Below are positions 1 through 62,175 of a stretch of 64,000 bases of DNA, piece by piece. The translations under genes were made by a program, and so were the position numbers. This DNA is from Ascidia mentula. Its lineage: Eukaryota > Chordata > Ascidiacea > Phlebobranchia > Ascidiidae. Within the stretch, counting starts at the first letter, position 1. Every line of letters begins with the position of its first letter. The DNA lies in assembly GCA_947561715.1 (NCBI GenBank), contig OX387198.1:6262001-6326000 (forward strand), written 5' to 3'. Below the pieces are notes generated by a model. The model had not been told where the DNA came from, did not search any database, and saw nothing but the letters and a program-made list of their open reading frames with translations.

Positions 1-1506
1 GGCTCGTTACAATTCCCATCTTGGTGGTTGGTTTTGGAGCGACGGATCTCCTGCAAACTATTCTGTTTCCAATGTTACATCTTGCCAGCAGGTGGCGCTC
101 CATTATGGAGATGGTTGGGAGAAATCTAGCGTCGATTGCGTGGGGCAACCAGCTTACTACGCCTGTCAATTGAAATGTTAGTGTGTAACAGAAGATTTTA
201 GTGTATACCAAAATGATGTACCATCCCGATAAGCTATAAAGCGTGGAGTAATCGTGTGATTATAAAAAAAATTCAACAAACCCAACAAATATGGCAATTT
301 CTTTAACATCAACACTTTGCAGTTGTTGCATCAGTGATGAAAGTTGCAGGCAGTCCATCTGTAGTTGTTATTAGCTGGAATGGAATGCGATCCCTTATTG
401 AGAATCATAACCTTTCTGCCAAGGTAATTGTTAACTAACACGTTTCCTCAATGACTTCCTATACCCATATTATTTCAGGTTGAAATCAATTCATTCGAGT
501 TAATGTACTCTGTTTACGTGCCATACGAAAACGCATCAGTTCAATTAACACACCTTAACTACTCAACAAACTACACTTTTCGGGTTGGTATTTTTCGATA
601 TCTAAAAGGTCAAATAACATTATCGTCCCTATATTATGATTTGGACAAACAAAAGTAAAGTCTCTCTTGTTTCACCTAAAATTAAAAACATGTCTAAGCA
701 TATAAATGTCAGTCGCCTTATTGTCGATAGGTGTCAGCGTTGATTTCAGGTTGCATACAAGAAAACGTCACGATATTCCTGGAGGTTACAACATCGGGTA
801 TTCCCCCAACGACTCACTTCGACCAGAGCAGTAAAATAACAATTAATTATATAATCGTTTGTTAATTGAGAGTTCAATATATTTTAGTAACAACATCAAC
901 CGGATTTACCGAGTCCAACAGTAGCAATGTCGAAAACTATATTCCCGGTTTGCTAATTGGTGTGATTTCGGCTCTGCTTGTTCTCGCAGCCATCCTAGTA
1001 TTTGGTCTATTGTTCTATAAACGAAGGTGAATGCCACTATTTACACATATTACCTACGATATAAAGGGTATTTAGAATCGCATGACAATTTTCATTTCCC
1101 TTCGTTATGCGATGTGTACGTCCTATAACCTAATTAATCAAAGAACGCCACGTTGTTTCCTTGGTTTGTTTAGTTTTAACAAAAACATTTATCCACGAAC
1201 TTGTAAACGTTTTGACGGATTCAAATACAGATACGACATGTCCAAACTAACCACTTTGGAACAACCAAAATATCAATCTTGCTGTCCAAAAACAGCAGAC
1301 CTTGCCAATGTATCACATCAGCGAGTAACGGAAGAGGAAGGCTATCTTTCATCAAACAGTTAGTAGCGAGGTTTTCTTTAATAACCGTTAAACTATGTGG
1401 ATGTTAAACGTACTTGACAGAGCATCAAACAACTGACCAGATTACGTATGCCAACGTCCCATCTTCCTCTCATCAACCAAATCACGTGTACGAAAGTATG
1501 AAGTGA
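1..1506 (+). CDS. Gene 1: lectin/FN3 receptor with ITIM tail (5' part outside window)
   Basis: The 3' half of a single-pass type I receptor enters from the left edge. Exons: 1-176 (end of the CTLD, with [14 protein letters not shown] and YYACQ), 323-423 and 479-583 (FN3-like pair), 731-830 (stalk ending in TSGIPPTTHF), 888-1026 (transmembrane segment ending FYKRR), 1231-1358 and 1421-1506 (cytoplasmic tail and stop). Splice phases agree with the complete copies elsewhere in the window. The tail contains QITYANVP, which fits the ITIM consensus (S/I/V/L)xYxx(I/V/L), and NHVYESMK with a YxxM. ITIMs are known to recruit SH2 phosphatases in vertebrate immune receptors; that role here is inference. 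The copy at 40968-42151 is nearly identical, as is the DNA downstream. The signal peptide and first lectin exons lie outside the window. Confidence 0.85.
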
Positions 1507-2743
1507 CGTAACAGCTTTCTTTACAGGATGAATATACATTTTTTGAATCTTATACTTTACAATCGAGAACATGGTAAAAAAAACAGCCAATTAAGTTTGG
1601 AAATCTTTTTCAAAATGATTACATTTTGGTTAGTAATGGTTTTATCCTGCAGTTTGGCCTAGGATTTCAATGTCATTTTGTTTGTAATAAAAATTGTGAT
1701 TTCAATCTCCATGTATCCAAGTTGATCATTTTCTGGCTGTATAATAAAAAAAATTACTGTTAGGTGTGTTTTTCTTGGGGTGTTTATTTGGACAGGGAAC
1801 AAAGAAAGGATGTGTCAGTATTTTTTAATGCTCAACTGCAAGATTTTCGTCCTTCCAAATCCTTGAAAACATTCCGAAAATGTTTTCCAACTCATCCTGG
1901 ACGAGTTTAAAGAGCCGAAACTTCGAAAGGCCTAATTTAATTCCAGTACGCGACTGATCACCGTCCTACCAAGTTAAGTTACAGCAAAATATCATCGTTT
2001 GGAAATAACATTCCACATTCCAAAGCTTTGTTTTCAGTGCTTGTGCATGTTCTATAATTTTTCAAAGCATTATAACCCTGTTCTCAGTGTTGTGATTTGT
2101 TGCAGTAACCAACGTCAATATTTCAAACAGCACGTTTTGGTGGGAAATAAAATAATAGTTTTGTTGAAAAATAATTTTAGGTAGATGTTACGCGCGGCGT
2201 TCAAAAAATACGTTATATGAGTCAATGCTGCTGATTCAAAATGTCATGCCTTTATTTACCCGTGTATTCATACCACAACAAAGCGTGGGATGTAAACTAT
2301 TCGAATGAGTCGCTCCAACCTAACACAACACAATGCTTTGCGTTGGTATGTTTAGCAAGCCATGGGAAATAAGCCTTAGTACACATTTCCATACCAACCT
2401 TCGTTTCGATGGGTTGTTTTATTCTCTGCATTAGCCAGACAACGAAAGCTGTCTATATGTAAATATAAACGTATCGTGCAGTGCCAGTTCAGAAGTTCTG
2501 CAGCAAGTTGGTAGAAACCACCATAGAGCAAAGGCGTATGAAACCTTCAGATAAGATAGTGCTATATTAAGCTGGTAGGTAAGCAGTAAAGAATTAGTTG
2601 TAAAACACTGGAGTATGTTTCAAACCTGTACATACAGATTGTATGATAAGATTGTTTGCAATGTAAGCACGAGCAACGAATATATGTGTTACAGACAACC
2701 AAGTTAAAATAGATTTACCAAATGTAGATATTCATAGTACACA
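1507..2743. repeat. Intergenic block upstream of gene 2, copied at 42152-43392
   Basis: I see no gene here. The block is almost base-for-base repeated upstream of gene 10 and more loosely upstream of genes 5 and 7. Recognisable shared pieces are a GTGTTTATTTGGACAGGGAA segment near 1780, a short CCCAC/GTGGG hairpin near 2270-2300 and a CAGTGCCAGTTCAGAAGTT segment near 2480. It presumably holds the promoter and 5' UTR of gene 2, since it precedes the signal-peptide exon in each copy. Confidence 0.7.
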
Positions 2744-5700
2744 ATGTTCATTAAGTTTGTGTCTGTTTTGCTCACTTTAGAAAATGTGGGGATGTCAATG
2801 ATGGCAACAAACGGTGAGCCTTAAAGGCAATAAAAGTCGATGAAAAGGACCAACAAGACAATGCGTTTATCTGTGTTTAGATTGCGGCCTCATATCATCA
2901 TCATTAAATGACGTCATATTAACCTTGTCCGATGAACTTGTTGATGCAAATACTGCACAAGAGAAATGTTCGTTACTTGGTGGAAATCTAACCATGACCG
3001 ATGACCAAAATATCAACGAGTTGTTAGTTGAATTAATAACAGATAAATATACAACAGGTATAATCTGCGAGTGATCTTAGACGAAACACCATCACCTAAC
3101 AGTTAATTGTCGAAAGGTTTAACAAGAGTTTGGACATTCTACAACTTTGTGGACGGGGAAAGGTTTAGATTTCAAAAAACTCAGAACGAGGTCGATTACT
3201 GGAAAAGTGCGAAACAACTTGGAGTTCTCTGGTACCTCGATTTATCTACAAGGTAAATATCATAGTAACACAACTTTGCGCAAAACTTTCTTCCGTGTAA
3301 TAATTTGTGTTTTTAGCAATACATCAATGAATCCAATGGAAGTTTTTTTCTGTGAAGCACCTAAATGGACAAGAAAAAAATGGACAGTTAGATTTGGCAA
3401 CAATTGCGAGAAAAATATTCCAACGTGGAATGGTAAGTAAATACGTGAGCTATATCTACTTCCATTTAATAATATTTTTATGTATGAATTATAGTCAGCA
3501 TACACTTTAAAATGATTTTTGTCGGTATAGGATGGCGATTGAGGTTTTCTTTGTTTGCATCCGAAAAACCACAATCCGGGTTCAAGCAAATACATATATA
3601 CCAGACTCAATCTTACGACTACTTCATGATAAGAAACGTCAAAAGACCATATCGTACATTTGTTGATTACATTGATTCTGCATATATCCCAGGTAACGAT
3701 TTGTTTTATTTTTTCGAGATATCCAAATTTGTTTTCAATCATACATTGTTTACTATTCCAAGACATCAATGTTATGATCGGTGCTCGTTACAATTCTCAA
3801 CTTGGTGGTTGGTTTTGGAGAAACGGATCTCCTGCAAACTATTCTGTTTCCAACGTTACATCCTGCCAGCAAGGGGCGCTCCATTATGGAGATGGTTGGG
3901 AGAAATCGAGTGTTGATTGTGTTGGACAACCAGGTTACTACGCCTGTCAGTTTAAATGTTAGTATCACAGAAATACTACTATGTAAAAAGAAACTAATGT
4001 TAGTGATATTAGAAAGTATTTTGTTAAGTTTTGTCGTTGTCTTGAATTTTGGCGTGGTGTTACGTTGATGTATCGTCAATTTATATTGTTTTAATTCATT
4101 TCTCTTGTGTTTGCAGTTATTGCTGAAGTGGAAAAGTTACCGTGCAACTCTTCTATTGTTGCTATAAAATGGATTGGACTGGGTGAATTTATTAAGAATC
4201 TAAGTCTTTCGGCTCTGGTAACTTAGATCGTTATAGGGTGGTAACCGATATAACGTGTTTTATACAGCCAAACAAACTCTGCATTAGGATTTTTTTCGTC
4301 TGTTTTTACAGGTGGAAGTCAGCTTGGTGGAATCACAACAGACTCTTCTCTTGCCTTATGCGAATCTATCGGTTCAGATTGAAAACTTAAACATGTCAAC
4401 GAACTATAGTATAAAAGTTAGTGTTTTGTCTTATATTCGATGAATTCCCATCGGCAAAAAAAGAACAATATGGTGAAGCTGAGACAGATTTTTGTAGTAA
4501 AATTACAAACATTTTTAAAAGTATTATAATAGGGATTCAACGATGTCATTAATAGGTATCAGCGTTTCTTTCTGGTTGCGCAAATACAAATGTTTCTACA
4601 TCTCTGACTTTGTCGACTTCCGGGATTCCCCCAGAAAGCTGCTTTCAGAACGGTAACAAAATGGTTACGTGATTTAATGTGTTGATTGATCGTTAACTGT
4701 GCCCAACAGGAAGTAACAACGCTACTGGCAACAACAACAACAACACAGTCCTGATACTCTGTGTAATTTTGGTAATTATTGCGGTTTTGGCAGCAATCTG
4801 TGTCGGATTATGGTATAAACAAAGGTAAGGTTATGAACACTTGTAAAGGAAACTTGTAATTGTTACGCATCGTAAGCATTTGCAGTATTGGTGCTTTGTA
4901 CGTAATTATTAGATGCGATTTATATCACCATTGTTCGTTTCCCCGAAAAGGGCTTTAAATATTATGGAAACCCCGATGCAAGCTTCTATTATGTTTGCAG
5001 AAAATCAAACCAGAGCGAACCTCAAGCAAACGAATTTACACCTCCCTCCACAGTATTTGCTGGGAATGAAGGTAATGTTGATCGTTTAACGATTATATTG
5101 AGTTGATATTGTCCTTTTCAGAAATACACTTTATCTTATTGGAATTCTTAATATGACTAATTGTGCAGCTTTTATCAATGCCGCAAATTATTACACGCAC
5201 ACAAAACTTTAAAAAAAGCAAAATAGTTAACGTACGATTTATATACTTTTTTACGGCTTAGATGCAGTTCAGCCAAATGGAGTTTTCCAAAATTTGTCGA
5301 CTGACGCAGACACGTCCAAAAACAACAATCATAAAGAACTATTCAAAGTTTACGAGACCAACATTGCAGCGGATTTTCATTTGTTTAACGAAGAGTTTAG
5401 GGTGGGATGTAGTTTTTAAAATCTGTTTTTGAAGCGATAGCACAATTGGAAAATATACAAAGACCCAACGTCACTTACTTCATACAGCCTTCTCCATTCG
5501 CAGAGGAAACTGTGTAATGCGTGGGTTTTACTGATCAGGCCTTCCATTGGCTTCAATCCTCAGCTGTACAGTTTAAGGATAGGATAAGTTTGTTTGGACA
5601 GTAGCTGGATGCCTAAGGCAGTTAATTTTACATGGGTTTGCGTAAAATCAACACAGGTTCTTTCGTGCAGGTTCTTTACAAACAAAGCAAAGAAAGTCAA

Positions 5701-8700
5701 CAACCATATGCGGTTTCACAACTTCCCGAAAACGCCACGCGAAACAGATACAAAAATATTTACCCGTGTAAGACATAAATGACTCAAAACAGCATATTTC
5801 CAGTTTTTATCCATTGCTTTGACAGACGACCATGCCCGAGTAATACTGGTCGGAAAAGAGGACAACGATTACATCAACGCTGCTTATATACCGGGTTACA
5901 GCAACGAGAAGAAGTTTATCGCTACCCAAGGCTCTAAGCAGGAGACGATCAATGATTTCTGGCTGATGGTTTGGCAAGAAAACTCAACAATAATTGTGAT
6001 GCTCACTGGTCTGATAGAAAAGGGAAAGGTTGGTCCTATCGTCAGACTTGAGTTGAACTAGATATGCAGAGAAAGCTAAATATGCTCAAAAAAGTGCACT
6101 GCGTGGAATAGGGAATTGCTAATCAGGGAAATTGCCAGCATAATATTTGTAGGTTGCCATCAGTACAACGAAATAATAAATTCTTGCCACAAACATCTGC
6201 AAAAAATAAGTGTAATAAGATATTGGTTTTGCCGGGCATTTGTGAACATAAACTAGTTCGTCGACACTAAAATCGACCTACAAATCATATCCATCTCAAG
6301 CCATGCATAGTCGTGTAGTAATATATGAAGCGCTGGCTCTGGGCGTGGGCACGTACGCGCGTTGTAAAAACAACGACAGTATCACATGTTGTCCCACCAA
6401 CTGAGTATCGACGTCATAATAACAGCACATCACTATATGTTGACTGGGACACCGGGACAAACCATTCATCCACGACTTCGGAAAGAACTTAAACACGAAA
6501 AATGCAAAACCAGCATCTGTGAAGATGACAACATTATTCCAAAACACCTTAATTATCAACTTAATTGTCAACAATATCACTCTAGACCGACTGAGTTTGC
6601 CCGACATACAAACGAATATACAAATAAAGTAAGAAAAGGAAAACAAACAATTATCAAAAATCTTCAATACTAACAAACGATCCATATACAGTTTGTCCTG
6701 TTGATTCCTTTCCTTAACCTATTATAAATACGTGTTTACAGGCAAAGTGCGAACAATATTGGCCAAGTGTGGGATCACATCTGGAAGTAACGGCTGATTA
6801 TGGAATTCAAACAGACCAAGAAGTTCTCTTAGGTGGAATATACATGCGAAAATTTGTTTTATGCCGCGGAGAGGTACGGCACATGTTGATTCATTGTGGG
6901 TTTTAAATACATATGGGTCTCGGTGTACCAGTGGTCGGGGTACGTCCCCGCTGGGTGACTGTGGGGTAGGACTGCGTGTCGGCCTCGCACCCGAAGGGAT
7001 CCGAGTCTCGACGGCAACTTGGCCTCGTAGGCAACTTGCCTTCTCTATCTGAAGGTTTACTGTTGCAGTTAAATAACTGCTTTACACAAGTCTGTGCGTC
7101 TTATAAATAGTGTAACTCCCGACTAAACACATACATCCACCAAGCTTCAAGCCGGTTCAAAGTTGTTCAAAAATCCATTTAATGATATAATCCAACGAAT
7201 AAATCCAAGTACAGTACAGTACAGTACAATTGGGGCTCCTATACAGTGTACTAAAGAAGAACCAATAGCCTAGACCCTTACACAGCAACAGTCAAAACAC
7301 ACAGGCACTAGTTAGTCTGCTTATATAGTCTGCGGTTGGCCACACGTATTGATGCCTTATTTGGAGTTGTTGCGCAACTTGAATGCAACTTGAAGGTGGC
7401 CGATTTGGTCGATTACGTCACTTAGTTTTGTAGCTTGATTAGCTAAGTGCCCTAAATAGGTTATTTATGTTTAGGTAGACTTTGTTTTCCGATCAACTGA
7501 AAGTAGTTATGTTTATTTTAGCTTTATTTATAATTTGCAAAAGAAGTACTTGTGTTTAAATTAACCTTATTTATTATTTGCCTTGATTTACGTAGTTAGT
7601 TTGGTTGCCTAAGTCACCTATATGACTTCATTGCCCAAATTACGTGTTAGTTACACAACTATAATGTGGCTGCATCTGCCGGCTACCATTTTTTCACGTG
7701 CCACCAGCTCGGCAAGTTTTCCCTATTAAATTGTCCGATCAGGAATTGATCTAAACCGGAAATGAGTTCTTCTTGGACATGCATTAAACGCGTGATTACG
7801 ATGACTTTGGTTTTAACTCTCGGTCATAATATAGTTATACGCTTTGGGCCTTTTTTATATATACATGTGTTGTGCGGTGCCATTTCAGGAAAAACGTATC
7901 GTTACCCAACTCCAATACACAACCTGGCCAGACCATGGAGTTCCTGTCACTACAACAAACATGATCTACCTACGAAAGATGGTGGAAGATTTACACAAAA
8001 CTTCAGCTCCAATAATTGTTCACTGCAGGTACAGAAAGGATGAGAAACTATCAGTTTTTATCATGACCAGCAAGCGAATTGAAAGTTTATTAAATATACA
8101 GTATAAAAATAAAATAAGTTTTTTCCATTTTCCTGCTTGTGTTGTGGATATTAGCCGCCACACAAAATTTGCGTAATGTTGCACCGAACGTGACTCAATC
8201 GTCACGTGTTTTGTTTTAAGTGCTGGTGTTGGTCGGTCTGGAACTTATATTGCCATGGATATTTTGTTCGATGAGTTGGACAACAAAGGAACTGTCGACG
8301 TCCCGCAGACTGTACTAAGGATGAGGGCAAACAGAACAGATATGATCCAAAACCTGGTACATAACCAATGTGTGATTAAACTTGAGGTGTGATAAATATT
8401 TTGCTTTCGATCTACAGAAACAATACATATTCCTGTATAAGTTGTTAGTGGAACGAGAGGGTCTACAGATGGAAACAGACAGAGATGTAATTGAACTTCA
8501 GTCAATGACTTCTGATGAAATGTAAGAGCCCAATAAAAAAATGTTCAACAATTAACGTCGTTAACTCATAGTACTTTTAGTGCATGCAACTTTTAAGGTA
8601 CATGAATCGTATTTTAAGAGCCTTTTTGCCCGTTTGCAGAACAAGAATTCAAGAATCTGAGTACAAAATCTTGTCCGATTGGCGATATGGAGAGAAGTGG

Positions 8701-10203
8701 CTTGAAGGAAACCCGAAGTTAACCACTTGTATGATTACGTTTATTCCATGCCTCTGTTTTTCTAGAATTGACTACCATTATTCTTACACACAAATATAGA
8801 CAAAAACACTGCCCTCGGAATTTGGGATAAAGATATTGACGGACTAAGAAGTTTCAATGCATCGTTCATACATGTAATAATATAAGTTGTTGTTTTTGAC
8901 AAATATTGGCGACAAATATAAAAAATACAAGTATACATGGACTATTTGCCAGGAAATGGACGCTTCTGAGTGTTTGATTGCTGCCCAAACCCCACCAAAT
9001 GACCAGATGGAGTTATTTTGGAAAATGGCTGTACAAAATGGCACGCGTATGTTTGTGGATTTGGACATGGCAGTGAAGGTACAACCGGTACACAACAAAA
9101 AACAGTTAGGGATTAAATGACATATTTTGTACATTTCCTAGGTTTCTCAAGATAAACCTTTACGATATGGCGACGTTACTCTTACTGCGGAAAAACTTTC
9201 AGAATGTCACTCATATAAATTAGCCACAATTGTGATTACATCTTCATCACAATCTTTCGTAAGTTTGACAAACACAAACTAAAAGGTAGATTGTATTTAA
9301 TGATAAAGGAAGTTTGGTAAAATGCGTTTGCAAAATGCCACTTTTCTAATATTTAAAAGTCATGTCAAAATTGTAGGTGAATATCATTGCAAAATATAGT
9401 TTAAAACACATGAAGGTTTTTACCCCTTGCGTTCAGACTGACACTCTGATGACATTCGTACAAGTAAAGGGATGGAGTGAAGTTAAGGAACCACCAAAAG
9501 AAGTGGAGTTTGTTGAAGTGATTGAAGCCGTGCAAGGGATGAAGAGAGATGGCAACTGTCGTTGTGTGTTGGTCATGTGCAGGTAAACATAAACCTAAAT
9601 ATTTACGAATATATCAATAAAACCTTAGGCCTAAAGGAAATAAAAAAAGCCTGTAACCGTTATTGTAGCCATGGGGAAAGACCCATATCCCCTTTCAAAG
9701 TTTTAAAAAAAATTCGAACCTCGCCAAAATGTCACGCTGACTGCGCTACTAGCCATAACGCATAACTTCTTTGTCTCTTTAAATTTGCGGTGTAGTCATT
9801 TAAGTATTTTATGTTTTCGTATAGAAATTTGATGGTGCTGCACAAAAAATTTGATGGTGCTGCACAAAGTTTTTCAGAGTACAGTAAACAAAGCTTTACA
9901 CACTATTACATTTATATTGTTGCAGCAATGGCAGAACGAGGACTGGTACTTTTATTGCTCTGACAAGAATAATTGAACGTCTGAAGACTCAGCAAAGGGT
10001 GGACGTTTTCCAAACTGTGAAAGATTTACGAGACATGAGACCAAACATGCTGGATAAGGAAGTAATTACGTTTTAACTACTTCCTCATATACCGCTGTTA
10101 AACTATATTGCATGACTTTTCTTTTAAGGTGCTCTACAAGTATTGCTACTCTGTGGTTTTGAAATACTTGGATGATTTTAGCACATACTCCAACTGCAAA
10201 TGA
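2744..10203 (+). CDS. Gene 2: receptor tyrosine phosphatase with lectin-like/FN3 ectodomain
   Basis: A 25-exon model encodes 1019 residues. Exons: 2744-2813, 2881-3057, 3117-3252, 3317-3432, 3531-3692, 3763-3957, 4117-4217, 4312-4416, 4556-4652, 4710-4824, 5001-5071, 5262-5401, 5671-5767, 5826-6028, 6742-6873, 7889-8028, 8221-8356, 8418-8521, 8640-8728, 8800-8873, 8953-9078, 9142-9258, 9437-9582, 9926-10061, 10129-10203. The order is signal peptide, CTLD-like module (to about residue 285), FN3-like region, stalk, transmembrane helix (about 395-420), D1 and D2. D1 carries [14 protein letters not shown], a DYINAAYI stretch, WPDHGVP (W652) and [10 protein letters not shown] (C685, R691), so it should be catalytic. 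ATQGP reads ATQGS here. D2 has WSE and [10 protein letters not shown] (C949), so it is probably a pseudophosphatase. The lectin exons are of the beta class (LTRVWTFY). The intron at 6874-7888 carries an insertion absent from genes 7 and 10. No disabling change was seen. Confidence 0.9.
6290..6690. repeat. Conserved block inside the D1 intron; copies at 33110-33515 and 47075-47515
   Basis: This intron between the D1 exons ending GLIEKGK and starting AKCEQYWP holds about 400 bases shared by genes 2, 7 and 10 but not gene 12. The minus strand stays open for 129 to 144 codons in all three copies, with small indels. On the plus strand, fragments such as [13 protein letters not shown] can be read between stop codons, which hints at an old retroelement insertion. 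I cannot identify it. The recent duplication of the three hosts could explain the shared open frame without selection. Confidence 0.45.
6918..7876. mobile_element. Insertion in gene 2 intron, with a tRNA-derived SINE-like start
   Basis: In genes 7 and 10 the corresponding intron is only 54 bases. In gene 2 about 960 extra bases sit between ACATATGGG and the acceptor before the WPD exon. The first roughly 100 bases are GC-rich and contain TGTACCAGTGGTCGGGG, resembling a tRNA A box, and GGATCCGAGTCTC, resembling a B box, as in tRNA-derived SINEs. The rest (7020-7870) is AT-rich with no coding capacity that I recognise and includes a (GTACA)n run. I could not find clear target-site duplications, and more than one insertion may be nested here. 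Confidence 0.5.
7207..7229. repeat. Pentanucleotide (GTACA)n microsatellite
   Basis: About four consecutive GTACA units lie inside the gene 2 intron insertion. Confidence 0.7.
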
Positions 10204-10696: not shown

Positions 10697-11500
10697 ATGA
10701 TAAGTGACGTCAAGACTTTTGTATTTTGTTTGGAAATTGTATTGTTTTTGCAAGCATCAACAGGTACGACTTATGGCAATAAGTGCACATATATTTGAGA
10801 AATGATAATAAACAACAAAGCTAACATTACTTCAGGCTGTAATATTACCGTTGCATCACTAAATGACAACCTATTAACTTTGTCCGATGATCTTGTTGAT
10901 GCGAACACTGCACAAGAAAAATGTACGTTGCTTGGTGGAATTCTTGCCCTTGATAGATGACCAGAATATCAAAGAGTCACTAATCCAAATAATGACAAAT
11001 AAATATACAACAGGTACGATTTGGGGCTTTTAGATTAAACATTATTAATACATGCGAGAAACTAACAATGAAAACGTTCAAGGTTTAACACGAGTTTGGA
11101 TTTTCTATGACTTTGTGAATGGTGAAAGGTTTAGATTTCAAATGAATCAGACAGAAGTCAGTTACTAGAAAAGTGCAATGCAACTTGGAGTTCTCTGGTA
11201 CGTCGATTTCTATACAAGGTAAATGCCACAGCTGCAATTGTGTACAAGTTCCTCCCGTGCAAAAATTTGTGTCCTTCAGCAAACCGCAGCAATGTTGTTT
11301 TTAAATATAAATGAAACATTAATATTTGACTTTTAGGCCTTTTAGGCCTACATCTCTATATGTTGACAATGAACCTCATATAATCTGTAGAAAGGTAAAA
11401 ATATACTTGGCAACTTAGGCATCTGCATTGCTTTCTGGCTGCGTGCAAGCAAACATCACAACCTCGGTGTCAAGTCCTCCACCGACAAAGAACAGTGAAG
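10697..11500 (+). pseudogene. Gene 3 5' part: broken beta-class lectin receptor exons
   Basis: A signal-peptide exon (10697-10763, starting MISDVKTFVF) is followed by the first lectin exon (10836-11013). That exon has one extra base after LLGGILAL, giving an early TGA. The second lectin exon (11083-11218) carries TAG at 11166-11168 where a conserved tryptophan codon should be. A short remnant of the third lectin exon may lie near 11280-11300. The remaining lectin and FN3 exons are missing. A stalk-like exon at 11420-11500 (ASALLSGCVQANIT) looks open and ends in phase 1. The frameshift and nonsense codon make the lectin part non-functional as read. Sequencing error is possible for the one-base insertion but less so for both changes. 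Confidence 0.8.
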
Positions 11501-22406: not shown

Positions 22407-22605
22407 TTTGCAGGAGATCCGTCGATCCAAAACCAACCACCAAGATGGGAATTGTAACGAGCCCCGATCATAACATCGATGTCTTGAAATCAAAGGACGT
22501 TCTATAGGAAATGTTGATGCTTCTTATCATTGTGGAATCAATTCTGTTTTCGCACAAATATAGTTTTTGTACCTGAGATCAGGCATTTTTGCGGCAAACG
22601 CCAAC
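22395..22605 (-). pseudogene. Minus-strand lectin exon fragments (duplicate of 14830-15024)
   Basis: The reverse strand carries part of the last lectin exon (22395-22482, [16 protein letters not shown]) and the degraded preceding exon to about 22605. It matches the minus-strand relic at 13916-15024, of which only this 5' part was copied. Confidence 0.75.
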
Positions 22606-40946: not shown

Positions 40947-40967
40947 TTTAACATCAACACTTTGCAG

Positions 40968-49300: not shown

Positions 49301-50073
49301 CTAAAGGTTTTTACCACTTGCGTTCAGACTGACACTCTGATGACATTCATACAAGGAAAGGGATGGAGTGAAGTTAAGAAACCTCCAAAAGAAGTGGAGT
49401 TTGTTGAAGTGATTGAAGTCGTGCAAGGGATGAAGAGAGATAGGAACTGTCGTTGTGTGTTGGTCATGTGCAGGTAATCATAAACCTAAATATTTACGAA
49501 TATATCAATAAAACCTTAAGCCTAAAAGAAATAAGAAAAGCCTGTAACCATTAACGTAGCCATGTGGAAAGACCCATATCCTTTTCAAAGTTTTAGAAAA
49601 ACATTCAAATCTCGCCAAAATGTCACGCTGACTGCGCTACTAGCCATAACGCATTACTTCTTTGTCTCTTTAAATTTGCGGTATAGTCATTTAAGTGTTT
49701 TGTGTTTTCGTATAGAAATTTGATGGTACTGCACACAGTTTTCCAGAGTACAGTAAACAAATCTTTACACACTACTACATTTGATATTGTTGCAGCAATG
49801 GCAGAACGAGGACTGGTACTTTTATTGCTCTGACAAGAATAATTGAACGTCTGAAGACTCAGCAAAGGGTGGACGTTTTCCGAACTGTGAAAGATTTACG
49901 AGACATGAGACCAAACATGCTGGATGAGGAAGTAATTACGTTTTAACTACTTCCTCATATACCGCTGTTAAACTATATTGCATGACTTTTATTTTAAGGT
50001 GCTCTACAAGTGTTGCTACTCCGTGGTTTTGAAATACTTGGATGATTTCAGCACATACTCCAACTGCAAATGA
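43393..50073 (+). CDS. Gene 10: receptor tyrosine phosphatase, alpha-class lectin ectodomain
   Basis: Twenty-five exons encode 1018 residues: 43393-43462, 43530-43706, 43778-43913, 44002-44117, 44278-44436, 44506-44700, 44862-44962, 45119-45223, 45355-45451, 45509-45623, 45787-45857, 46054-46193, 46508-46604, 46665-46867, 47576-47707, 47762-47901, 48104-48239, 48301-48404, 48533-48621, 48693-48766, 48846-48971, 49033-49149, 49328-49473, 49796-49931, 49999-50073. D1 has [21 protein letters not shown] (W651) and [10 protein letters not shown] (C684). D2 has WSE and [10 protein letters not shown] (C948). Upstream DNA and signal exon match gene 2, but the second to fourth lectin exons are alpha class as in gene 7, so the head has been exchanged. 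No disabling change was seen. Confidence 0.92.
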
Positions 50074-51145: not shown

Positions 51146-53930
51146 ATGATACATAAAAAGGTTGTGTGTTTTCTGATAGTTTTGGGATCTGCATGGCTTG
51201 TAAAGGTAAAATCAGGTAAGGCGACTATAGGCATGACATTTGAGAAGAGCGATCAACGTAAAAACATTGACAATATTTCAGACTGTGGTTTTAACGCAAC
51301 AATGAAACCGTATTAATTTTGTCCGATGATCTTGTTGATGCGAACAATGCAAAAGAGAAATGTTCGTTACTTGGCGGAAATCTTGCCATGACTAATGACC
51401 AGAATATTAACGAGTCATTAATTCGATTAATGACTAACAAATATACATCAAGTAAGCTGTGAGAGCCTATTAATTGGAAGTTAAGAGTTAATACATTCGT
51501 ACAAACTAACAATGAAAATGCATGAGGATTAACACGAGTTTGGACTTTCTACGATTTCGTTGATGGCGTAAGGTTTAGATTTCAAAAAACTCCGAAAGAG
51601 GTCAGTTACTGGAAAAGTGCGAAACAACTTGGAGTTCTTTGGTACCTCGATTTGTCTGCAAGGTAAAAGTCAAAACGATAATACAGAAAGCATGTGGTAA
51701 AAATGCTTTATTGTGGACATGATCAATCCACAAAATATACTAAATTCTTTAAATTTTATTCTTCAGCAAAACAGCAGTAAGTACAACTGAAGTTTTTTTC
51801 TGCGTAGCACCTTATTGGCCCAGAAAAAAATGGAAAGTTCGAGTTGGCATAAATTGCGAAGAATACATTCCTGAGTGGAATGGTAAGCTAACTGAATAAA
51901 CTTTTATTCACTTAAAATAGCGTTGTAATATGTGTGATGTTGTCAACATACGTTTTATAATGATAAGACGGTACAAAGCTATTTTTCATACTTTTTCAGG
52001 ATGGCGATGGAGGTTTTCTTTGTTTGCACCAAACAAACCTCATGTAGGGTTCAGGAAAGTCTATGTATACGGCAGTAAAAGCAAAGGTTATAATATAATA
52101 AGGAACGTAAACAGTTCATACAGAACGTTCGATCATTTTCACGAATCCACATTTATACCTGGTAATGTTCAATTATTTAGCAAATTCAAAATAAGCGATT
52201 CGGCATGTATTGTTTTTCCGATTCCAAGACATCAATGTTATGATCGGGGCTCGTTACAATTCTCAACTTGGTGGTTGGTTTTGGAGCGACGGATCTCCTG
52301 CAAACTATTCTGTTTAAAACGTAACATCCTGCCAGCAGGGGGCGCTCCATTATGGAGATGGGTGGGAGAAATCGAGTGTCGGTTGTGTTGGACAACCAGC
52401 TTACTACGCCTGTCAGATTAAATGTAAGATTGTTGAAATACCTCACAAACGTGAAGGACTGTACAATTGAATTGCACATTTCGCAGTTGTTGCCTCAGTT
52501 TCGAATTTTTCCAGCAATTCCTCCGGTGTTGTTATCAGCTGGGATGGATTGGGATCCTTCATTACCAGTTTTAACCTTTCTGCAGAGGTAACTCTTATTT
52601 GCACTTTTATATTTTCCAGAAATGATTTCCTAAGCTAAGGCTTATATCATTTTAGGTAGAAATCACTGTATTGGAGTTGATGAATTCTGTTTACATTCCG
52701 TACGAAAACGCTTCAGCTCAAATAACAAACCTGGACCACTTTAGCAACTACACTTTCCGGGTTAGTAGCCTGCAGTGCATTAATGCAAAAGCGAAAATGA
52801 CCTTTTCCTGAAAAAGGATTTATCATAACTGTGCGATCTCTATAGGTGTCCGCGCTAATTTCCGGTTGCGTTCAAGAAAAAGTCACTACATTTCTGACGG
52901 TTACATCTTCGGGTATTCCCCCAAGACGTTGTTTTACGCAGGGTAATTGTTGAGTTTTTCCTGTTGAAATTTTTCTTTTGCAGGCATATCTTTCTTCGGC
53001 ATTGCTAATTGCAACAAAAAATTAACTGTCGTTATTCTAATTGGAGTGATTCCAGGTTTTTTTCTGGTGCTTACAGCTGCCCTTGTGTGTGTTGTGTTCT
53101 ATAAGCGAAGGTACGCTATGCTACACAAACCATTCCTACAGCAGAAAGCGTTGTTTAAGCATAGAAACATAGATGTGTATTTTGAATGTTTACGAGTGGC
53201 AACGAAACACCCTTTGCCTGTGAGATGTCATAACGTGATATATTTACAACCAGGTGCCACAACTCCAAATCGGCGGCTTCTGACCAATCAACACAACCTT
53301 GTGAATTGGACGATCCACAGAATAATTCTACCAATCATTCACATCGCTCAATCACGAACGAAGCACCAATCAGTCAGTAGAATATACACCTCTGTTACCT
53401 CATCCACACTACACTGTAGTTACTAGTTAGTAGCACATTACATGATTCCCAATCAGGGTGCCGTGTCGCTCTGAGGTTATATTTGAACCTTCAGGGGTGC
53501 CGTGGGATTTTTCTTTATTTTCACACTGGTAATTTTTCACCATACGGTTTATCGGTTGTGTAATTCTATATCACGATACCGTTGTTCAGTGTTAACAATG
53601 ATATTAGCCTCCATCAACAATCAGACATGGAGGCTTATTGCTTCATAAGTGGCGGTAGTCCATTGGTGTGACGCCATTGAGTGCCGCAATATCTTCATAA
53701 ATTCCATAGGGGTGCTGTTAGCAAATAAAAGTTTGGAATGTATTCGCATATACACCTCGGTATTTGTACCCTATACTATGCGTTGTATTTGAGTTAGCGT
53801 AAAAGTGCGGATATTTTGCTTGGCAGAAATTCAAACGATACCAGAATATCCAACAGAGGGTTTGGTTACTTATACCAATGTTTCACCTTCGCCCGATGAA
53901 ACAAACAACGTTTACGAAAGGGTGCAGTGA
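51146..53930 (+). pseudogene. Gene 11: disabled copy of gene 8 (beta-class, ITIM)
   Basis: All twelve exons are recognisable: 51146-51215, 51282-51451, 51527-51662, 51767-51882, 52000-52161, 52229-52423, 52487-52587, 52656-52760, 52846-52942, 52984-53110, 53254-53372, 53827-53930. The first lectin exon lacks seven bases near FNAT (170 instead of 177), shifting the frame. The last lectin exon has TAA at 52315-52317 in place of the codon after YSV, and VDC reads VGC. The tail keeps LVTYTNVS, while the last motif reads NVYERVQ. Two independent disabling changes in the ectodomain argue for a pseudogene; a truncated product or an allele remains possible. Confidence 0.85.
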
Positions 53931-54757
53931 CGTCATTACTTTTCTTCATTTGTTTTTATATCATTTATGGTTGCAAAGATAGCTTATCTTTATCTTTAAA
54001 AGATAATGTGGGCATATTTTTTCAATGCAAAAAATTTTTGTCGTTATTTTGCATTGCGTGCAATTTGTGGCGTAATTTTATTCACATAGCGTTCGTTGCA
54101 GTAAAACTCAACTTCAATACTGCTGTATTTAAATTGTCAATTGCTAGTGACGTGTTAAGTTAATCGGAACAAAATAGTTTTTCGTATCTCGACCTGGGCA
54201 AAACTGAACACTGGATGTCGATAAAGAGACGAACAAAATCTTGTTTTGCTCATAAACTAATGTTAAATTTCTTTAATGTTTTCCTAATATAAATCCTTTC
54301 TAGATGACAAAAATAATTCTGTAACACATTTTTCGTTCCGGGATACACAATTTTTATTCCTGAAACAGAACTTTTGAGAGCATATTACACCAGTCATTTA
54401 ACCGCATACGAAATTCTAAACAGTGCAAATAAATGAGGTTACGAGCATTTACAATGAGCAGTAAATAATATATATTGTGTTTAAACCAGTATGTTCCAAT
54501 GTTGTCATTGGACAAAGCAGAGGGTATTTATTAAAAAGCGTGACGTTTCGATTAAGGTCGCTCTGGATCCAACTGTTTGTTTTGACCTTTTTCACATGCT
54601 GTAACCGGGCTGTAACTTTCACAGCCTTCTATACTCCCACGGGAAACTGCGTGACGAGTGGGTGCGCCGTTGGAGTTTATACAAGGATGCGAATACGTTT
54701 GTGTGGCCAATAGTTGAATACTAATGGCATAGTTTTGCTTGGTTTGTCTTACCACAG
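53931..54757. other. Gap between gene 11 and PTP relic
   Basis: Copy of 39961-40731; decayed PTP-gene intron and flank, no gene seen. Confidence 0.5.
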
Positions 54758-54854
54758 GTTCTAAATAAACAATGCAAGAATGTCCAGCAGGCTCATACGG
54801 TTTCACAACTTCCCTAGAACGCCACGCGAAACAGATACAAAAATATTTACCTGT
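54758..54854 (+). pseudogene. Degenerate first D1 exon downstream of gene 11
   Basis: A 97-base exon with good splice sites encodes QQAHTVSQLP, a TAG, then [12 protein letters not shown]. The same TAG is present in the relic after gene 8, so the stop arose before the two blocks were duplicated. No further D1 exons follow. Confidence 0.8.
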
Positions 54855-54960
54855 GTAAGTGACAAAGAGCGATACATTTATCACAACAACCTTGCTTGTG
54901 ATAACACTTATTAAAAAAACAGTGCATGGTCAATATGCCTTCGAAATCCACAACGTTTTG

Positions 54961-55845: not shown

Positions 55846-58800
55846 ATGTTTTGTAAATTTGCATTTGCTCTGTTACTTTTTGGAATAACATTTGTGTCAA
55901 AGGTTACAGCTGGTAAGCCTTTATCGAAACGAACAACAGATATAATATTTAAAATCATCTCCTAACTGTAAAAAATGGCCATAGAATATAAATAACTTTT
56001 TTAGATTGTGGTCTCACTTCAACGGTATTAAATGACACTCTATTAACTTTGTCCGATGAACTCGTTGATGCGAACACTGCACAAGAGAAATGTTCGCTGC
56101 TTGGTGGAAATTTAACCATGACCGATGATCAGTATATCGAAGAGTTACTAATCCAAATAATGACAAATAAATATACATCAGGTACGCTGTGAGAGCCTAT
56201 TTAAATGGAAGCCGTATCAATACATTTGTACAAACTAACAGTGTAAATGTATAAGGTTTAACACGAGTTTGGACTTTCTACGACTTTGTGGAAGGGGAAA
56301 GGTTTAGATTTCAAACAACTCCGGAAGAGGTTAGTTACTGGAAAAGTGCGAAACAGCTTCTACCTCCAGTTCTCTGGTACCTGGATTTATCTACAAGGTA
56401 AATATCAAAACAATAACAATGTTGGGAATATTTTGACACAATTAATGATCAACAACTTCGTTAGTTCTTCGTGGAGAGGAAAAGTATCCGTAAAATTCCG
56501 TCCATGTAATGGTTTGTGTTCTTTAGGAAAACAGCAATGAGCCCAGTCGAAGTTTTTTTCTGCGAAGCACCTAATTGGCCAAGAAAAAAATGGGGAGTGG
56601 GTGTTGGCAAGAATTGCGAACAAAACACTCCTCGGTGGAATGGTAATTATACGTTACATCTACTTCACTAACGTAATGTTTCAATATAAGGCATGTTGTT
56701 TATATACGTGGTGGTAAAACGTTACTTTTTGTGCATTGTTTCAGGTTGGCGGAGGCGCTTTTCTTTGTTTGCATCGGATAAACAACAAGCAGGATTTAAG
56801 CAAATATATTTATATCAAAGTAAAAGCAATGGATATCAAATGATAAGAAGTGTCAACAGCTCATACAGAGCGTTCGTTGTTTTCCTTAAATCTACATTTA
56901 TCCCGGGTAACATTTTAACTCGTTTGAAAAATCTCGAATAAGAAGTATTTATTGTTCACAGACATCAATGTTATGATCGGGGCTCGTTGCAATTCCCAAC
57001 TTGGTGGTTGGTTTTGGAGCGACGGATCTCCTGCAAACTATTCTGTTTCCAACGTTACATCCTGCCAGCAGGGGGCGCTCCATTATGGAGATGGTTGGGA
57101 GAAATCGAGTGTCGATTGCGTGGGACAACCGGCTTACTACGCCTGTCAAATGAAACGCAAGTGCTTTTGCAATCAAATACTAAAATGGATTGTTTAAGAC
57201 GCATTGTTTAAAATAATAGCAGTGTTTCAGGTTGACACGTGCATATACTACTAATTATACTAATTGATTTAACGTTTGTCCATTTGTTTGTAGTTGTCGT
57301 GTTTGTGAAAAAATATCCGTGCAATTCTTCTATTGCTGATATAACTTGGAGCGGACTGGATCAATTTTTTAGAAGTCAAAACCTTTCGGCCGAGGTAACT
57401 TTAACTACAGTGCATACTTGTTTAACTTGAGAAATTTACAAAGGCTTGGTAATATTCGCTGATGGGCGTAGACTTATTGCAGCTTTCGTATTTTTTTTGT
57501 TTTTCAGATGGAAATTACCGTGGTTGAGATGCGACAGACTTTTTACGTTCCTTATGCTAATCTATCGATTCAAATCGAAAATTTAAACATCTCTACGACC
57601 TACAATATCAGGGTTGATACTAATCGAAAACCTTTTACCTCTGTGCCGTAATGTCTTTACACAGTGCTACATAATATAATATAAAAATGTAATTCGAACC
57701 CTGGGCATGTACAAATAACAATGCCTTCTTTTTGTCTGCAGGTCTCAGCATTTCTAACCGGTTGTGTAAAAACAAATGTCTCCACTGCTCTTGAGATTTC
57801 GACTTCGGGTATTCCCCCAGAAAGCTGCTTTCCGCAGGGTAACAATGCCAACGAGATTATTTCTTGCGCTTTTTTACCATTGATTGTGCCCTGGCAGACA
57901 CTACCGTCGAGTCCGTTAGCAAGACTACCGTCGATTCCGGCAGCAACACTACTGCAGCTATCTCCACCAACAATTCACCCACAGTGCTGTTGGTTTGCAT
58001 AATATTACCTCTTTTCATTATTGTGGGAATCATTGTCGGATTCTGGTACTACAGGCGAAGGTGGAGATCATACTATTTTGTAGACAAATTTTGTAGAAGT
58101 TGCCATTAATGATCCGTGACAATTGATCCCTTATTTTAATTAAATCATAAAGTAAGGCGTATCACTGCCTTGTTGCTAAGTTTTCTTTTTCGATATTTTG
58201 ATTCAAAACAAAAGTGCCATTATTTACCTTTATCAGACAATATCGGCAAACGAAATCGGATGCAATAGAAATTACAACAACGCCTCCTCTTGGCCATGGT
58301 GAAGGTACGGCGTTTTTCATTTCTCTGTCTGCAACCTACTTGTGTGCATTACAGCAAACATCGAACATCTTAAAACTGCATAAGAAATATTTGTAACTTT
58401 GCATCAAAACGCACAGCAAATGGAAAGGCAAAAATTCTGTATTCTGCTTTTGTTTTTTGTTCAGATGCGTCTCAGTCCAACGGCATTTACCAAAACGTCT
58501 CGTTCGTGGTCGACGCCACTAGTAAGAACAATCCTAAATCTAGAGGGCTTTTTAGCGTTTACCAGAAAAATGCTGCGGCGGGTTTTCGTTTTTTCAAAGG
58601 AGAGTTTCAAGTAAGTTGATCCACAAACGAAGCTCTGTGCTTTACTGTTTTAATGCGAAAGAACCGCCCATTCTTAATCTTAAAGAAGAGGGAATGCAAT
58701 GTTTTTATCACAAAACTTTAAGTGTATACCTACCAAAAATAGAAGATGCCAGAAAGAAATTTGATGGAATACGGTGTGCGATAACGGTGTGGTTTTATAC

Positions 58801-61800
58801 TAGGACTAGACTGTACTAATTACAGGATCTCGACAAACAAAGCAAGGATAGACAACAATCTTATACGGTTTCGCAACTTCCCGAAAACGCCACGCGAAAC
58901 AGATACAAAAATATTTACCCGTGTAAGTGACAAAAATGACTCAAAACAATTTTGCTGTAGTTATTGATGCAATCCTGTTACAGACGATCATGCCCGAGTA
59001 ATATTGAAGGAAAAGGAAGACAACGATTACATCAACGCTGCTTATATACCGGGTTACAGCAACAAGAAGAAGTTCATCGCTACCCAAGGGCCTAAGCAGG
59101 AAACGATCAATGATTTCTGGCTGATGGTTTGGCAAGAAAACTCAACAATAATTGTGATGCTAACTGGTTTGATGGAAAAGGGAAAGGTTGGTCCTCTAAC
59201 GTGATCGGGCCAAGACTGGCATTTGTATACGTCCTAGATCAAATGCCAGCTAATCCTCAGAACCTATACACGTGCTTAAACCTGAAACGAACGTAACGTA
59301 AATATTTGAAACCGCTTCGCCGTGGAATTTCTTTTTCGAACATTAGCTCTTGTCAGTTTTATGAGACAAACATCCCCTTTTATTTGCAATTTCCCTTCAG
59401 TGACGATAAGAATTAAGTTGACGTTCTAATCTGTTTCTAGTCAAAATGCGAACAATATTGGCCCAACGTCGGTTCTCACCTAGAAGTAACCCCAGGTTTA
59501 AAAGTACAAGCACAACAAGAAGTGCTTTTGGGTGGAATCTACGAAAGGAAATTTCTACTGTGGCACGAAGAGGTAACACATTTTGTAATTAATCGCTGAA
59601 TACAAACCCGAAACTCATTGTTTTCTTTGAAGTTTGCATCCATAGAAGTAAGTGTTTTTCTCACAACCTGAAAGTATTGTGTTATGTCCACTGACATTGA
59701 AAATATTGTGTTATGTCCACTGACATTGAAAGTATTGTCTTATGTTTGCTGACATTGAAAGTATTGTGTTATGTCTACTGGCATTGAAAATATTGTGTTT
59801 GTACACCGAGGTTGCACGTCACGAGACCTTTCTTGCAAGTACATCCGCTTATAGCGCGGGTCGTGCATTAACATCATTATTCAAAATATTTCAGGAAAAA
59901 CGAACGGTTACCCAACTCCAATACACAACCTGGCCAGACCATGGAGTTCCTGTCACTACAACAAACATGATCTACCTACGTAAGATGGTGGAAGATTTAC
60001 ACAAAACTTCAGCTCCTGTAATTGTTCACTGCAGGTAGAGCACATGAAGTTTAAGGTTTTGAACCGTATCCGAATAGAAAGTTGCGCTGCAAGAAGCATT
60101 ACTGCGATAGAATTTTAGTATATGGCACGTGTAAAAATTGCTTCTTTGGTAGCCTATATGTTGTTTTAAGTTGTCTAAACCTGCTTCAATGTAACCGAAT
60201 GCTGCTTCACTAATGTACGATAACCCGCGTTGGTGTTTTAGTGCTGGTGTTGGTCGGTCTGGAACTTATATTGCCATGGATATTTTGTTCGATGAGTTGG
60301 ACGACAAAGGAAATGTCGACGTCCCGCAGACTGTACTACGGATGAGGACAAATAGAATCGACATGATTCAGAACCTGGTACATAAATCTACCGCAAAGGC
60401 ATAGTATTCTAAAAATAAACGTACTTTCGTTTACAGAAACAATACATATTCCTGTATAAGTTGTTAGTGGAACGAGAGGGTCTAGAAGTGGAAACAGACA
60501 GAGATGCAATTGAACTTCAGTCAATGAGTTCTAATAAAATGTAAGAACCCAATAAAAAATATTGGCTAAGAGTGTGATAATTTATTGCCTGATCCGGTGG
60601 CTCATCAATCTGTTTAATTTGCTTAATGTGTCCGAATTCAATGCTAATTATAACTTTACACGTGAATTTTTAGGACAATGATGCAAAAATCTGAGTACAA
60701 AGCCTTGTCTGGTTGGCGATACGGAGAGGGTTGGCTTGAAGGAACCCCCGACTTAACCACTTGTATGATTACATTTAATTTATGCCTTTTTTAATGACTA
60801 ACATTATTTACACATACAAATGTAGACAAAAACACTGCCCTCGGAATTTGGGATGAAGATATTAACGGAGTGAGACATTTCAATGCATCGTTCATAAAGG
60901 TAAAAAAACATTCGGTTTGGCAAATAATTTCACATACAAGCAAGTATGCCATATTTGTTAGGAACAAGACACTTCAGAGTGTTTCATAGCTGCCCAAATT
61001 CCACCAAATGACCAGATGGAGTTATTTTGGAAAATGGCTGTACAAAATGGCACGCGTACGGTTGTGGATTTGAACATGGCATTTCAGGTACAACCGGTTT
61101 AAACTTGAGAAACAAAGGGAGTTTTATCTATGTATACATTTTCTATAGGTGTCCAAAGACAAACCTTTACGTTGCGGTGAAGTTACCCTTACTGTTGAGC
61201 AACTCACGGAATATCACCCGTATAAAATGGCCACACTCATGATTTCATCGTCATCGAAATCCTTTGTAAGATTGAAGGAAACGAAACCAGGCTATTGTTA
61301 TAGAAACAATAGGGCCAATAACGATAAGTGAGCGGCAGGCAATGCCTTCGTGTTTTAATCACCAGACTGGTTCTCCTCCAAACCGTCACTATATAGTCAC
61401 CCAGCTGTTGAAATCTATTAGACCCAGAAACAGAGGCACTGTCTGTAACTAATATTGCCTAACATTCTTACGTTAGTATATCATACATTAGGTTTATAGA
61501 CAGCGATGGCATTGCAGCCTAGTTGGGCCAGCCACTCTTTCCTGACAAGTCGGATCACTGCGTTACTATTACAAAATTTATTTTACGTACCTTATACCGT
61601 TCACCCTAAACACTCAGGTTGACCAGCCGATGACATTTGTACAAGTAAAGGGATGGAGTGAAGCTAAGAAACCACCAAAAGAAATGGAGTTTGTTGAAGT
61701 GATTGAAGCCGTGCAAGGGATGAAGAGAGATGGCAACTGTCGTTGTGTGTTGGTCATGTGCAGGTGAACTAACAGGGCCCAGATTATAGCTTTTAAATTA

Positions 61801-62175
61801 AAGAGCCATTCTATGATATCCAGTCATTGTAGGATTTTCAGCAAATGAACGATTTTCAAATGTTATGCGTGTAACACCTATTTTGTAGCAATGGCAGAAC
61901 GAGGACTGGTACTTTTATTGCTCTGACAAGGATCCTTGAACGCCTTAAGACTCAAAAACGAGTGGATGTTTTCCGAACTGTAAAAGACTTACGAGACATG
62001 CGACCAAACATGCTGGATGACAAAGTAGGCCAATTGTTTCGTATTTCCCTGTTTCGTTATTAGCTGGCTAGATTATATTGTTTACCATTTATTGTCTAAG
62101 GAGCTCTACGTGTATTGCTACTCTGTGGTTCTGAAGTATCTGGATGGTTTCAGCACATATTCCAACTACAAATGA
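55846..62175 (+). CDS. Gene 12: divergent receptor tyrosine phosphatase, beta-class lectin ectodomain
   Basis: Twenty-five exons encode 1037 residues: 55846-55912, 56005-56181, 56256-56397, 56527-56642, 56745-56906, 56962-57156, 57294-57394, 57508-57612, 57742-57838, 57898-58060, 58237-58304, 58465-58610, 58826-58922, 58984-59186, 59441-59572, 59895-60034, 60242-60377, 60437-60540, 60674-60762, 60826-60899, 60962-61087, 61149-61265, 61618-61763, 61889-62024, 62101-62175. Domain order is as in gene 2. The stalk before the membrane is longer and rich in Thr and Ser ([19 protein letters not shown]), so probably O-glycosylated. The exon at 56962-57156 uses a GC donor (GCAAGT). D1 has [21 protein letters not shown] (W670) and [10 protein letters not shown] (C703). 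D2 has WSE and [10 protein letters not shown] (C967). Introns are unlike those of the sister genes, so this is the oldest or most isolated copy. Confidence 0.9.
59669..59800. repeat. 29-bp minisatellite in a gene 12 intron
   Basis: Four and a half units of a 29-base motif (TGAAAGTATTGTGTTATGTC plus CACTGACAT) lie head to tail in the intron before the WPD exon, with a few substitutions between units. Confidence 0.9.

Follow-up and report, generated by a model that had tools for sequence, protein, structure and literature searches.

In the ascidian Botryllus, the fester co-receptors (FcoR) have tails with an immunoreceptor tyrosine-based inhibitory motif (ITIM), a hemITAM (after the immunoreceptor tyrosine-based activation motif, ITAM) or a core Y-x-x-I/L/V. 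ITIM and hemITAM can reside on alleles of one locus, alternative splicing swaps the motifs at some loci, and CD45-like receptor tyrosine phosphatases (RPTPs) are reported from the same tissue (PMC12065747, as far as its available text goes). One Fugu gene model, PTP-GMC1, is listed both as containing a C-type-lectin-like domain (CTLD) and as a tyrosine phosphatase, in the available text of a survey that rates models of its unclassified group lowest in quality (Zelensky and Gready 2004, PMC514892). In the open-access literature, subscription papers lying outside the search, we found no account of CTLD-RPTP/ITIM arrays in tunicates or of a two-tail system. Here we analyze receptor genes in a 64,000-nucleotide stretch of the Ascidia mentula genome, positions 6,262,001 to 6,326,000 of contig OX387198.1 (C2:6262001-6326000; hereafter the window), in which related ectodomains end either in an ITIM tail or in an RPTP.

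We propose, with a probability of roughly 0.6, that these genes belong to a birth-and-death array of surface receptors that would give one recognition repertoire two intracellular outputs. Self-comparison of the window reveals tandem units, with the listed pairs of more than 500 bases 76 to 93% identical. They have the plan of paralogous type I receptors, running from a signal peptide through two degenerate CTLDs, one fibronectin type III domain (FN3), and a transmembrane segment (TM) to the tail. A first-pass annotation had described about a dozen units of the same architecture; all 12 were located, and its numbering and array stand, although only about 7 of the 12 look complete (A, E, F, G, H, J, and C, the last with a doubtful donor). 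The lectin-FN3 ectodomain it had named is retained, corrected to two CTLD-like regions plus one FN3. Its assignment of ITIM tails to units 1, 6, 8, 9, and 11 and of RPTPs to units 2, 7, 10, and 12 also holds, but it had omitted unit 4 (C), another ITIM gene.

Exon peptides of unit 10 (H) and of two ITIM genes served as queries across 294 kb (C2:6052001-6346000), and the mapped exons were spliced automatically; the genome searched comprises 195.8 Mb in 79 contigs. Over the 294 kb we obtained 13 phosphatase (PTP) models, 23 ITIM models of an E type, 7 of a G type, and 14 unassigned pieces; the full set of five lectin exons is present in 12, 19, 6, and 2 of them, respectively. No internal stop interrupts 11 of the 13 PTP models; of the other two, one has two stops and one, a fragment, has a single stop. 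Of 18 tailed units without a signal-peptide exon at first pass, 16 yielded a candidate in the correct phase. Genome-wide, the exon 6 peptide (second CTLD) gave 95 matches at E≤0.001 among 100 scored candidates; two regions, C2:5.96-6.32 Mb and C2:4.18-4.35 Mb, hold most of those listed, and the few others fall on C52, C69, C70, C73, and other parts of C2. For the E-type ITIM exon, 31 matches reach E≤0.1, of which C52 holds one. The region near 4.2 Mb is a sister array that has diverged, its exon 6 identity being about 70 to 78%. Thus, the window is part of a larger array reaching beyond its 12 units. Pooled pairwise dN/dS (the ratio of nonsynonymous to synonymous divergence) is 0.24 to 0.38 in each of six segments, indicating that the reading frames are under purifying selection. 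A lone copy on C52 (C52:16806099-16807284) matches exon 6 at 95% and the ITIM exon at 82%.

The units and relics in the window are as follows; all lie on the forward strand unless stated.
1 to 1506: unit 1, 3′ part; end of the second CTLD exon, FN3 exons, TM, and ITIM tail (middle exon 1231-1358; ITIM exon 1421-1506, ITYANV); the 5′ part is rearranged and outside the window
2744 to 10203: unit 2 (A), lectin-FN3-TM-RPTP, 25 exons, no internal stop; juxtamembrane GVFQNL, with Phe in place of Tyr
10838 to 11487: unit 3 (B), fragment with exons 2 and 3 and one FN3 exon; inverted copies of exons 6-9 at about 14040-14830, reverse strand
16346 to 20435: unit 4 (C), lectin-FN3-TM-ITIM; signal exon 16346-16412; TM donor altered; ITIM exon ends at 20435 (ITYDNV)
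21923 to 22397: unit 5 (D), fragment with exons 1-3, then inverted exon 5/6 pieces
23961 to 27012: unit 6 (E), lectin-FN3-TM-ITIM; signal exon 23961-24027; tail exons 26735-26862 and 26927-27012 (ITYDNV)
29150 to 36060: unit 7 (F), lectin-FN3-TM-RPTP, open throughout; 24 exons recovered by the automatic models, exon 11 visible in alignment
37185 to 39960: unit 8 (G), G-type lectin-FN3-TM-ITIM (VTYTNV)
40732 to 40947: relic PTP exons 13 and 14, 3′ of the unit 8 (G) ITIM exon
40961 to 42151: unit 9, FN3-TM-ITIM, no lectin exons found; tail exons 41876-42003 and 42066-42151 (ITYANV)
43393 to 50073: unit 10 (H), reference RPTP gene, 25 exons, 1,030 amino acids; signal 43393-43462, lectin 43530-44700, FN3 44862-45451, TM 45509-45623, juxtamembrane 45787-46193, first phosphatase domain (D1) 46508-48404, second phosphatase domain (D2) 48533-50073
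51146 to 53930: unit 11 (I), G-type ITIM gene (VTYTNV); probably a pseudogene because of an in-frame TAA in exon 6 (52228-52422)
54755 to 54859: relic PTP exon 13, 3′ of unit 11 (I)
55846 to 62175: unit 12 (J), lectin-FN3-TM-RPTP of a diverged subtype; signal exon 55846-55912; juxtamembrane GIYQNV

Inverted lectin and FN3 exon fragments stand beside truncated forward units at about 14040-14830 and 22397-22560 (both reverse strand), and further inverted pieces are seen near -55600 to -54800 and near -137300 to -136800, in coordinates relative to the window. An open reading frame at 13218-13415 (reverse strand) matches only DUF7542 in Pfam, at 19.3 bits and below that family's cutoff; we take its peptide to resemble the endonuclease end of a Penelope-like element. 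Rfam and tRNA scans found no feature.

In the window PTP genes, lectin exons are 89 to 98% identical to their best ITIM-gene match, compared with 61 to 72% for FN3 exons. Exons 2-6 of H reach 0.90, 0.98, 0.93, 0.92, and 0.96 against ITIM genes and 0.89, 0.98, 0.80, 0.88, and 0.95 against other PTP genes; exons 7-9 reach 0.94, 0.93, and 0.97 within the PTP genes versus 0.69, 0.61, and 0.67 outside them. Units F and J follow this pattern (exon 6 of J is nearer a PTP gene), unit A is nearer a PTP gene in every exon, and the G-type units G and I, as well as C and E, mostly stay with their own type. Highly similar clustered ectodomains on differing tails, as in paired receptors, are thus present; the term would further imply opposing activating and inhibitory outputs. 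Phylogenies agree. On a 37-row protein tree of exons 2-5, the PTP label changes 10 times, against 10.1 in shuffles, and well-supported branches force at least 3 changes; on a tree of FN3 and TM (40 rows, TM exon included), each tail forms a clade, with 2 changes in total, the minimum. A DNA tree of exons 2-5 needs 8 PTP changes (7 to 8 in bootstraps), at least 4 of them forced, and rejects PTP monophyly (approximately unbiased test, p-AU of 3.8e-46). Shuffles of this tree average 10.2 changes and go as low in 34 of 500 cases, which points to some PTP clustering; the G-type ITIM genes form one clade in it, and the E-type genes require 9 changes. At the sequence level, identities and trees together show that the lectin cassette (exons 2-6) has been swapped between tail types and that FN3, TM, and tail have stayed linked. 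The pattern may stem from gene conversion or from unequal crossing-over, bounded between exons 6 and 7.

The first-pass suggestion that lectin and PTP exons belong to one gene is borne out by H, in which a single frame runs over 25 exons. When modeled by hand, this gene joins lectin, FN3, TM, and two PTP domains through 24 introns, all GT-AG and consistent in phase at each junction; its weak points are a GAG acceptor 5′ of exon 6 and donors that score negatively after exons 4, 5, 17, 19, and 21. The start of exon 11 was set at 45787, since a longer exon would be out of phase and is disrupted in unit F. A homologous architecture is found in P0051, an annotated Clavelina protein with an unnamed product that is 31% identical to H over the double-lectin region. 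Among the best 120 of 4,183 database matches to the PTP region, the first is from Phallusia mammillata (59% identity over 99%) and the second from a mollusc; Ciona intestinalis, Ciona savignyi, and Clavelina lepadiformis also appear, and most others are vertebrate RPTPs. Two GH6 matches in the genome suit a tunicate as well, a group that carries GH6, and we place the animal among ascidians close to Phallusia. A word search with the whole of H retrieved two proteins that cover 17 to 18% of the query and contain only PTP in Pfam, and a search with a four-row ectodomain alignment found no homologue at E≤0.01. The absence of homologues there says little, because the word search missed P0051, which the PTP region later retrieved, and P0051 exceeds the length range of the ectodomain search.

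In its phosphatase tail, H matches Y_phosphatase in Pfam at 376 bits in two stretches; in the PDB it scores 382 bits with PTPRA, 377 with PTPRE, 371 with PTPRS, and 361 with LAR. The family combines a TM with a D1 that bears the WPD loop and HCX5R, the features of a receptor tyrosine phosphatase. WPDHG is present in the D1 of all 13 PTP models and an HCX5R-type signature, by pattern, in 12 (the automatic model of unit -86128 is without it). D1 thus has the motifs of an active enzyme. In D2, all 13 models have WxE where WPD is expected (WSE, or WGE in one fragment) and keep C-X5-R with loss of the preceding His; because of these losses, D2 is probably regulatory. D1 motifs are kept and D2 is degenerate in all four window PTP genes. 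The C terminus reads TYSNCK in H and TYSNFK in Phallusia, similar to YANFK of vertebrate PTPRA and PTPRE.

The ITIM tails carry [IV][TS]YxNV over the 294 kb, as ITYxNV in 23/23 E-type and V[TS]YTNV in 7/7 G-type copies, all close paralogues located by ITIM-exon similarity and hence not independent observations; every one of these last exons fits the ITIM consensus [SIVL]-x-Y-x-x-[ILV]. The residue between Y and N varies in the E type (A, D, P, or V). The E-type tail runs from the TM through RYDMSKL...EEEGYLSSN to KHQTTDQITYANVPPSSHQPNHVYESMK in unit 1 and its relatives; a script resolved this three-exon tail in 4/22 copies, in 7/23, and, with the widest pattern, in 12/23. The middle tail exon of the G type could be read in more than one frame. 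At window positions 39370-39510, about 140 bases between the TM and ITIM exons are near-identical in six aligned G-type copies, and a frame there reads SVEYTPLLPHPHYTVV, a candidate coding stretch.

The first-pass annotation had treated the tails as two alternatives. Both do occur on the same ectodomain, but the division is less sharp than that. In the sister array, the RPTP juxtamembrane exon carries VTYxNL in all three genes read (L003, L005, and L043); these exons read VETPEVTYQNLDRK, VETPEVTYPNLNRK, and VETPEVTYQNLNRK, placing an ITIM consensus within an RPTP. Conversely, relic PTP exons 13 and/or 14, 70 to 97% identical to those of H, lie 0.8 to 6.7 kb downstream of 7/7 G-type ITIM exons. 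Given both observations, ITIM and phosphatase are not clean alternatives; the tails also have a Y-x-N core in common. ITIM tails and the RPTP juxtamembrane exon are probably of shared ancestry, and ITIM-only and RPTP genes may have derived from one another through loss or gain of the phosphatase, in either direction. In relatives, the juxtamembrane site reads SVYVNTA (Clavelina) and QVYENPF (Phallusia). Sister locus L043 has one ectodomain followed by a TM and short tail and then by a second TM, an ITIM juxtamembrane exon, and PTP; both TM exons enter in phase 1 and leave in phase 2, and the second TM acceptor is weak. Alternative splicing of two tails would be possible in phase, yet L043 has the sole long gap between exons 6 and 14 (3.3 kb versus 1.7 to 1.9 kb) among the nine sister PTP units listed, and so is probably a product of unequal crossover.

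From these features we infer how the system would work. Both receptor types would stand on the surface and bind related ligands through their CTLDs, without calcium-dependent sugar binding. A Src-type kinase would phosphorylate the ITIM tail, which could then recruit SH2 proteins, either an SHP-type phosphatase or, via YxN, GRB2. The RPTP type would carry its own phosphatase to the same contact and thereby set the phosphorylation of neighboring tails. Blood cells or epithelia would likely use the system for immune or self/non-self recognition, the role that the first-pass annotation had proposed for a paired-receptor cluster. More tentatively, RPTPs gathered by ligand might dephosphorylate sibling ITIM tails or kinase substrates, so that one recombining CTLD repertoire would set an enzyme against a docking site, rather than ITAM against ITIM.

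Evidence that weighs against our proposal concerns the fold, selection, the state of the units, and the tails. For the fold, the first-pass annotation had pointed to HMMER profiles; PTP was found, but Lectin_C and fn3 fall short of their Pfam cutoffs. Lectin_C, through the N-terminal half of its profile, scores 13.7 to 18.6 bits (cutoff, 22.6) in H and in 4/4 whole ectodomains, and is absent from three lectin pieces cut out alone (0/3). The fn3 profile reaches 13.2 to 21.9 bits (best E, 2e-4; cutoff, 25) in 4/6 rows holding the FN3 region and has no match in H; Pfam finds neither domain in P0051. PDB searches with the H ectodomain alone and with one alignment (A1) returned no CTLD, the best A1 match being dethiobiotin synthetase (E of 0.019), and 9/20 PDB matches of the P0051 ectodomain are CTLDs, with an unrelated phage-tail-like cement protein as the best match. 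AlphaFold2 on P0051 alone gave nothing usable (mean predicted local distance difference test score, pLDDT, 31). The sugar-site motifs EPN, QPD, and WND occur in 0/38 ectodomains. Such results would suit an ectodomain of another fold, for which "lectin" would be a misnomer, but profile comparisons among related sequences make this improbable. In hhalign comparisons with 10 CTLDs from this genome, two separate regions align, at E of 2.1e-5 and 0.0019 for a single comparison (probabilities of 77% and 15%). A five-row profile of 266 positions (A3), built from Clavelina, window, and sister-array ectodomains, has 19 PDB matches at E≤10, of which 16 are CTLD proteins (about 8 different molecules; best E, 0.012) aligned at the two expected places, positions 1-83 and 203-263; the other three are TrwK. 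The CTLD proteins are CLEC4A4, CLEC4C, KLRB1, KLRG1, collectin-11, CD93, sea raven antifreeze protein, and dectin-1, which we take to belong to the CTLD superfamily. Mainly because two places each match CTLDs in register, we accept two degenerate CTLDs as the predicted fold. One FN3, below the Pfam cutoff, is supported as well: in the A1 search, an FN3 domain of sidekick-2 aligns at the FN3 place (E of 0.27, second after an unrelated enzyme). A tblastn search of phages with one lectin piece found no match. That lectin and PTP units are instead separate genes lying in tandem is very hard to credit. Their joining in the window is known from genomic sequence, but the checked junctions of H carry through from lectin to PTP, of the 12 automatic PTP models that include every lectin exon, 11 are open throughout (the twelfth has the two stops), and P0051 unites both regions in one protein.

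As for selection, the lectin exons show no sign of positive selection in pooled pairwise dN/dS (0.31 and 0.36). Among 741 pairs, dN exceeds dS in 8 and 26, respectively, and dS is often saturated for exons 4-5. Several units are broken, and ITIM copies without the motif could escape a similarity search. The RPTPs of the window have no canonical ITIM (GVYQNL in F and H, GIYQNV in J, and GVFQNL in A); YQN is found by pattern in 9/13 PTP models, with Phe there in unit A. The tails might even serve mainly as GRB2-type adaptor tails that act in GRB2/Ras or adhesion signaling and not in inhibition, a possibility that we consider real but doubtful. Y-x-N also suits GRB2-type SH2 binding, and the C-terminal YANF of RPTP-alpha is a GRB2-type adaptor site. 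Asn occupies +2 in the tail types read (ITYxNV, VTYTNV, GVYQNL, and VTYQNL) and in Phallusia P0003 (VYENPF) and Clavelina P0051 (VYVNTA), although the last two lack V, L, or I at +3; the C-terminal TYSNCK/TYSNFK likewise resembles the vertebrate site. On the other hand, the 30 ITIM-type copies found all retain a hydrophobic +3 together with I or V at -2, and the ITIM and adaptor readings are mutually compatible. A family for gamete recognition or self-sterility, rather than immunity, seems unlikely. Reproduction also uses large, fast-turning arrays of surface receptors, and nothing that we see in the sequence speaks against such a role, but ITIM and RPTP tails suit hematopoietic signaling. In addition, the Botryllus ampulla is reported to express an ITIM/ITAM pathway that includes CD45-like RPTPs (PMC12065747, available text).

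The two-output receptor array that we favor hints at a little-known recognition system whose function stands as a prediction. Beyond the Botryllus fuhc locus, it offers a concrete gene family for studying how sea squirts, which lack adaptive immunity, diversify their recognition and couple it to kinase and phosphatase signaling. Given the exchange of the recognition cassette and the existence of ITIM-bearing RPTPs, whether ITIM receptors and RPTP genes had a common origin can be tested across ascidians.

Other CTLD genes occur elsewhere in this genome. In an RPTP array at C72:16.9-17.4 Mb, one stretch (L044, C72:17036601-17041600) shows by eye CTLD, several Ig-like domains, TM, and PTP exons; therefore, CTLD-RPTP genes are not confined to the family of the window. 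In an array at C72:5.3-5.5 Mb, another stretch (L033, C72:5422801-5426300) has a CTLD above the Lectin_C cutoff, Ig-like domains, a second CTLD, and FN3; these exons lie at least about 3 kb upstream of a PTP match at C72:5429539, and the stretch stops before PTP. Both resemble the window family in having CTLD ectodomains within RPTP arrays and differ from it in their Ig-like domains, as judged by eye. A very large expansion of Lectin_C exons occupies C1:22.4-27.6 Mb and C72:18.4-18.8 Mb, with most of the 150 scored matches listed on C1.

Among known systems, the C-type-lectin receptors of the vertebrate natural killer complex resemble the array in having CTLDs without the sugar motif, ITIM tails, and clustered paired genes; unlike it, they are type II proteins with a single CTLD, no FN3, and no phosphatase tail. 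The R4 RPTPs (PTPRA and PTPRE) and LAR share with the RPTPs of the array a TM, a D1-D2 pair with catalytic D1 and weak D2, and a C-terminal YxN. R4 ectodomains are short, without folded modules, and that of LAR is Ig-FN3, whereas the RPTPs described here have a CTLD-CTLD-FN3 ectodomain and lie in a tandem array. An RPTP bearing a CTLD has some precedent in the Fugu PTP-GMC1 listing and the deposited Clavelina protein; unlike the array, PTP-GMC1 is one list entry, and the available text mentions neither an ITIM partner nor an array (PMC514892). The best-fitting comparison, by analogy and within the available text of PMC12065747, is FcoR. Like the present genes, FcoR are ascidian multigene type I receptors in arrays that undergo birth-and-death evolution and bear tyrosine-motif tails. 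They differ in that their ectodomain is built of Ig and sushi domains (IgV-sushi-Ig) without CTLD and that a phosphatase tail is not described in that text; in H and the four whole ectodomains scanned here, Pfam finds neither an Ig nor a sushi match, and the window units instead combine a predicted CTLD-CTLD-FN3 ectodomain with ITIM or phosphatase tails.

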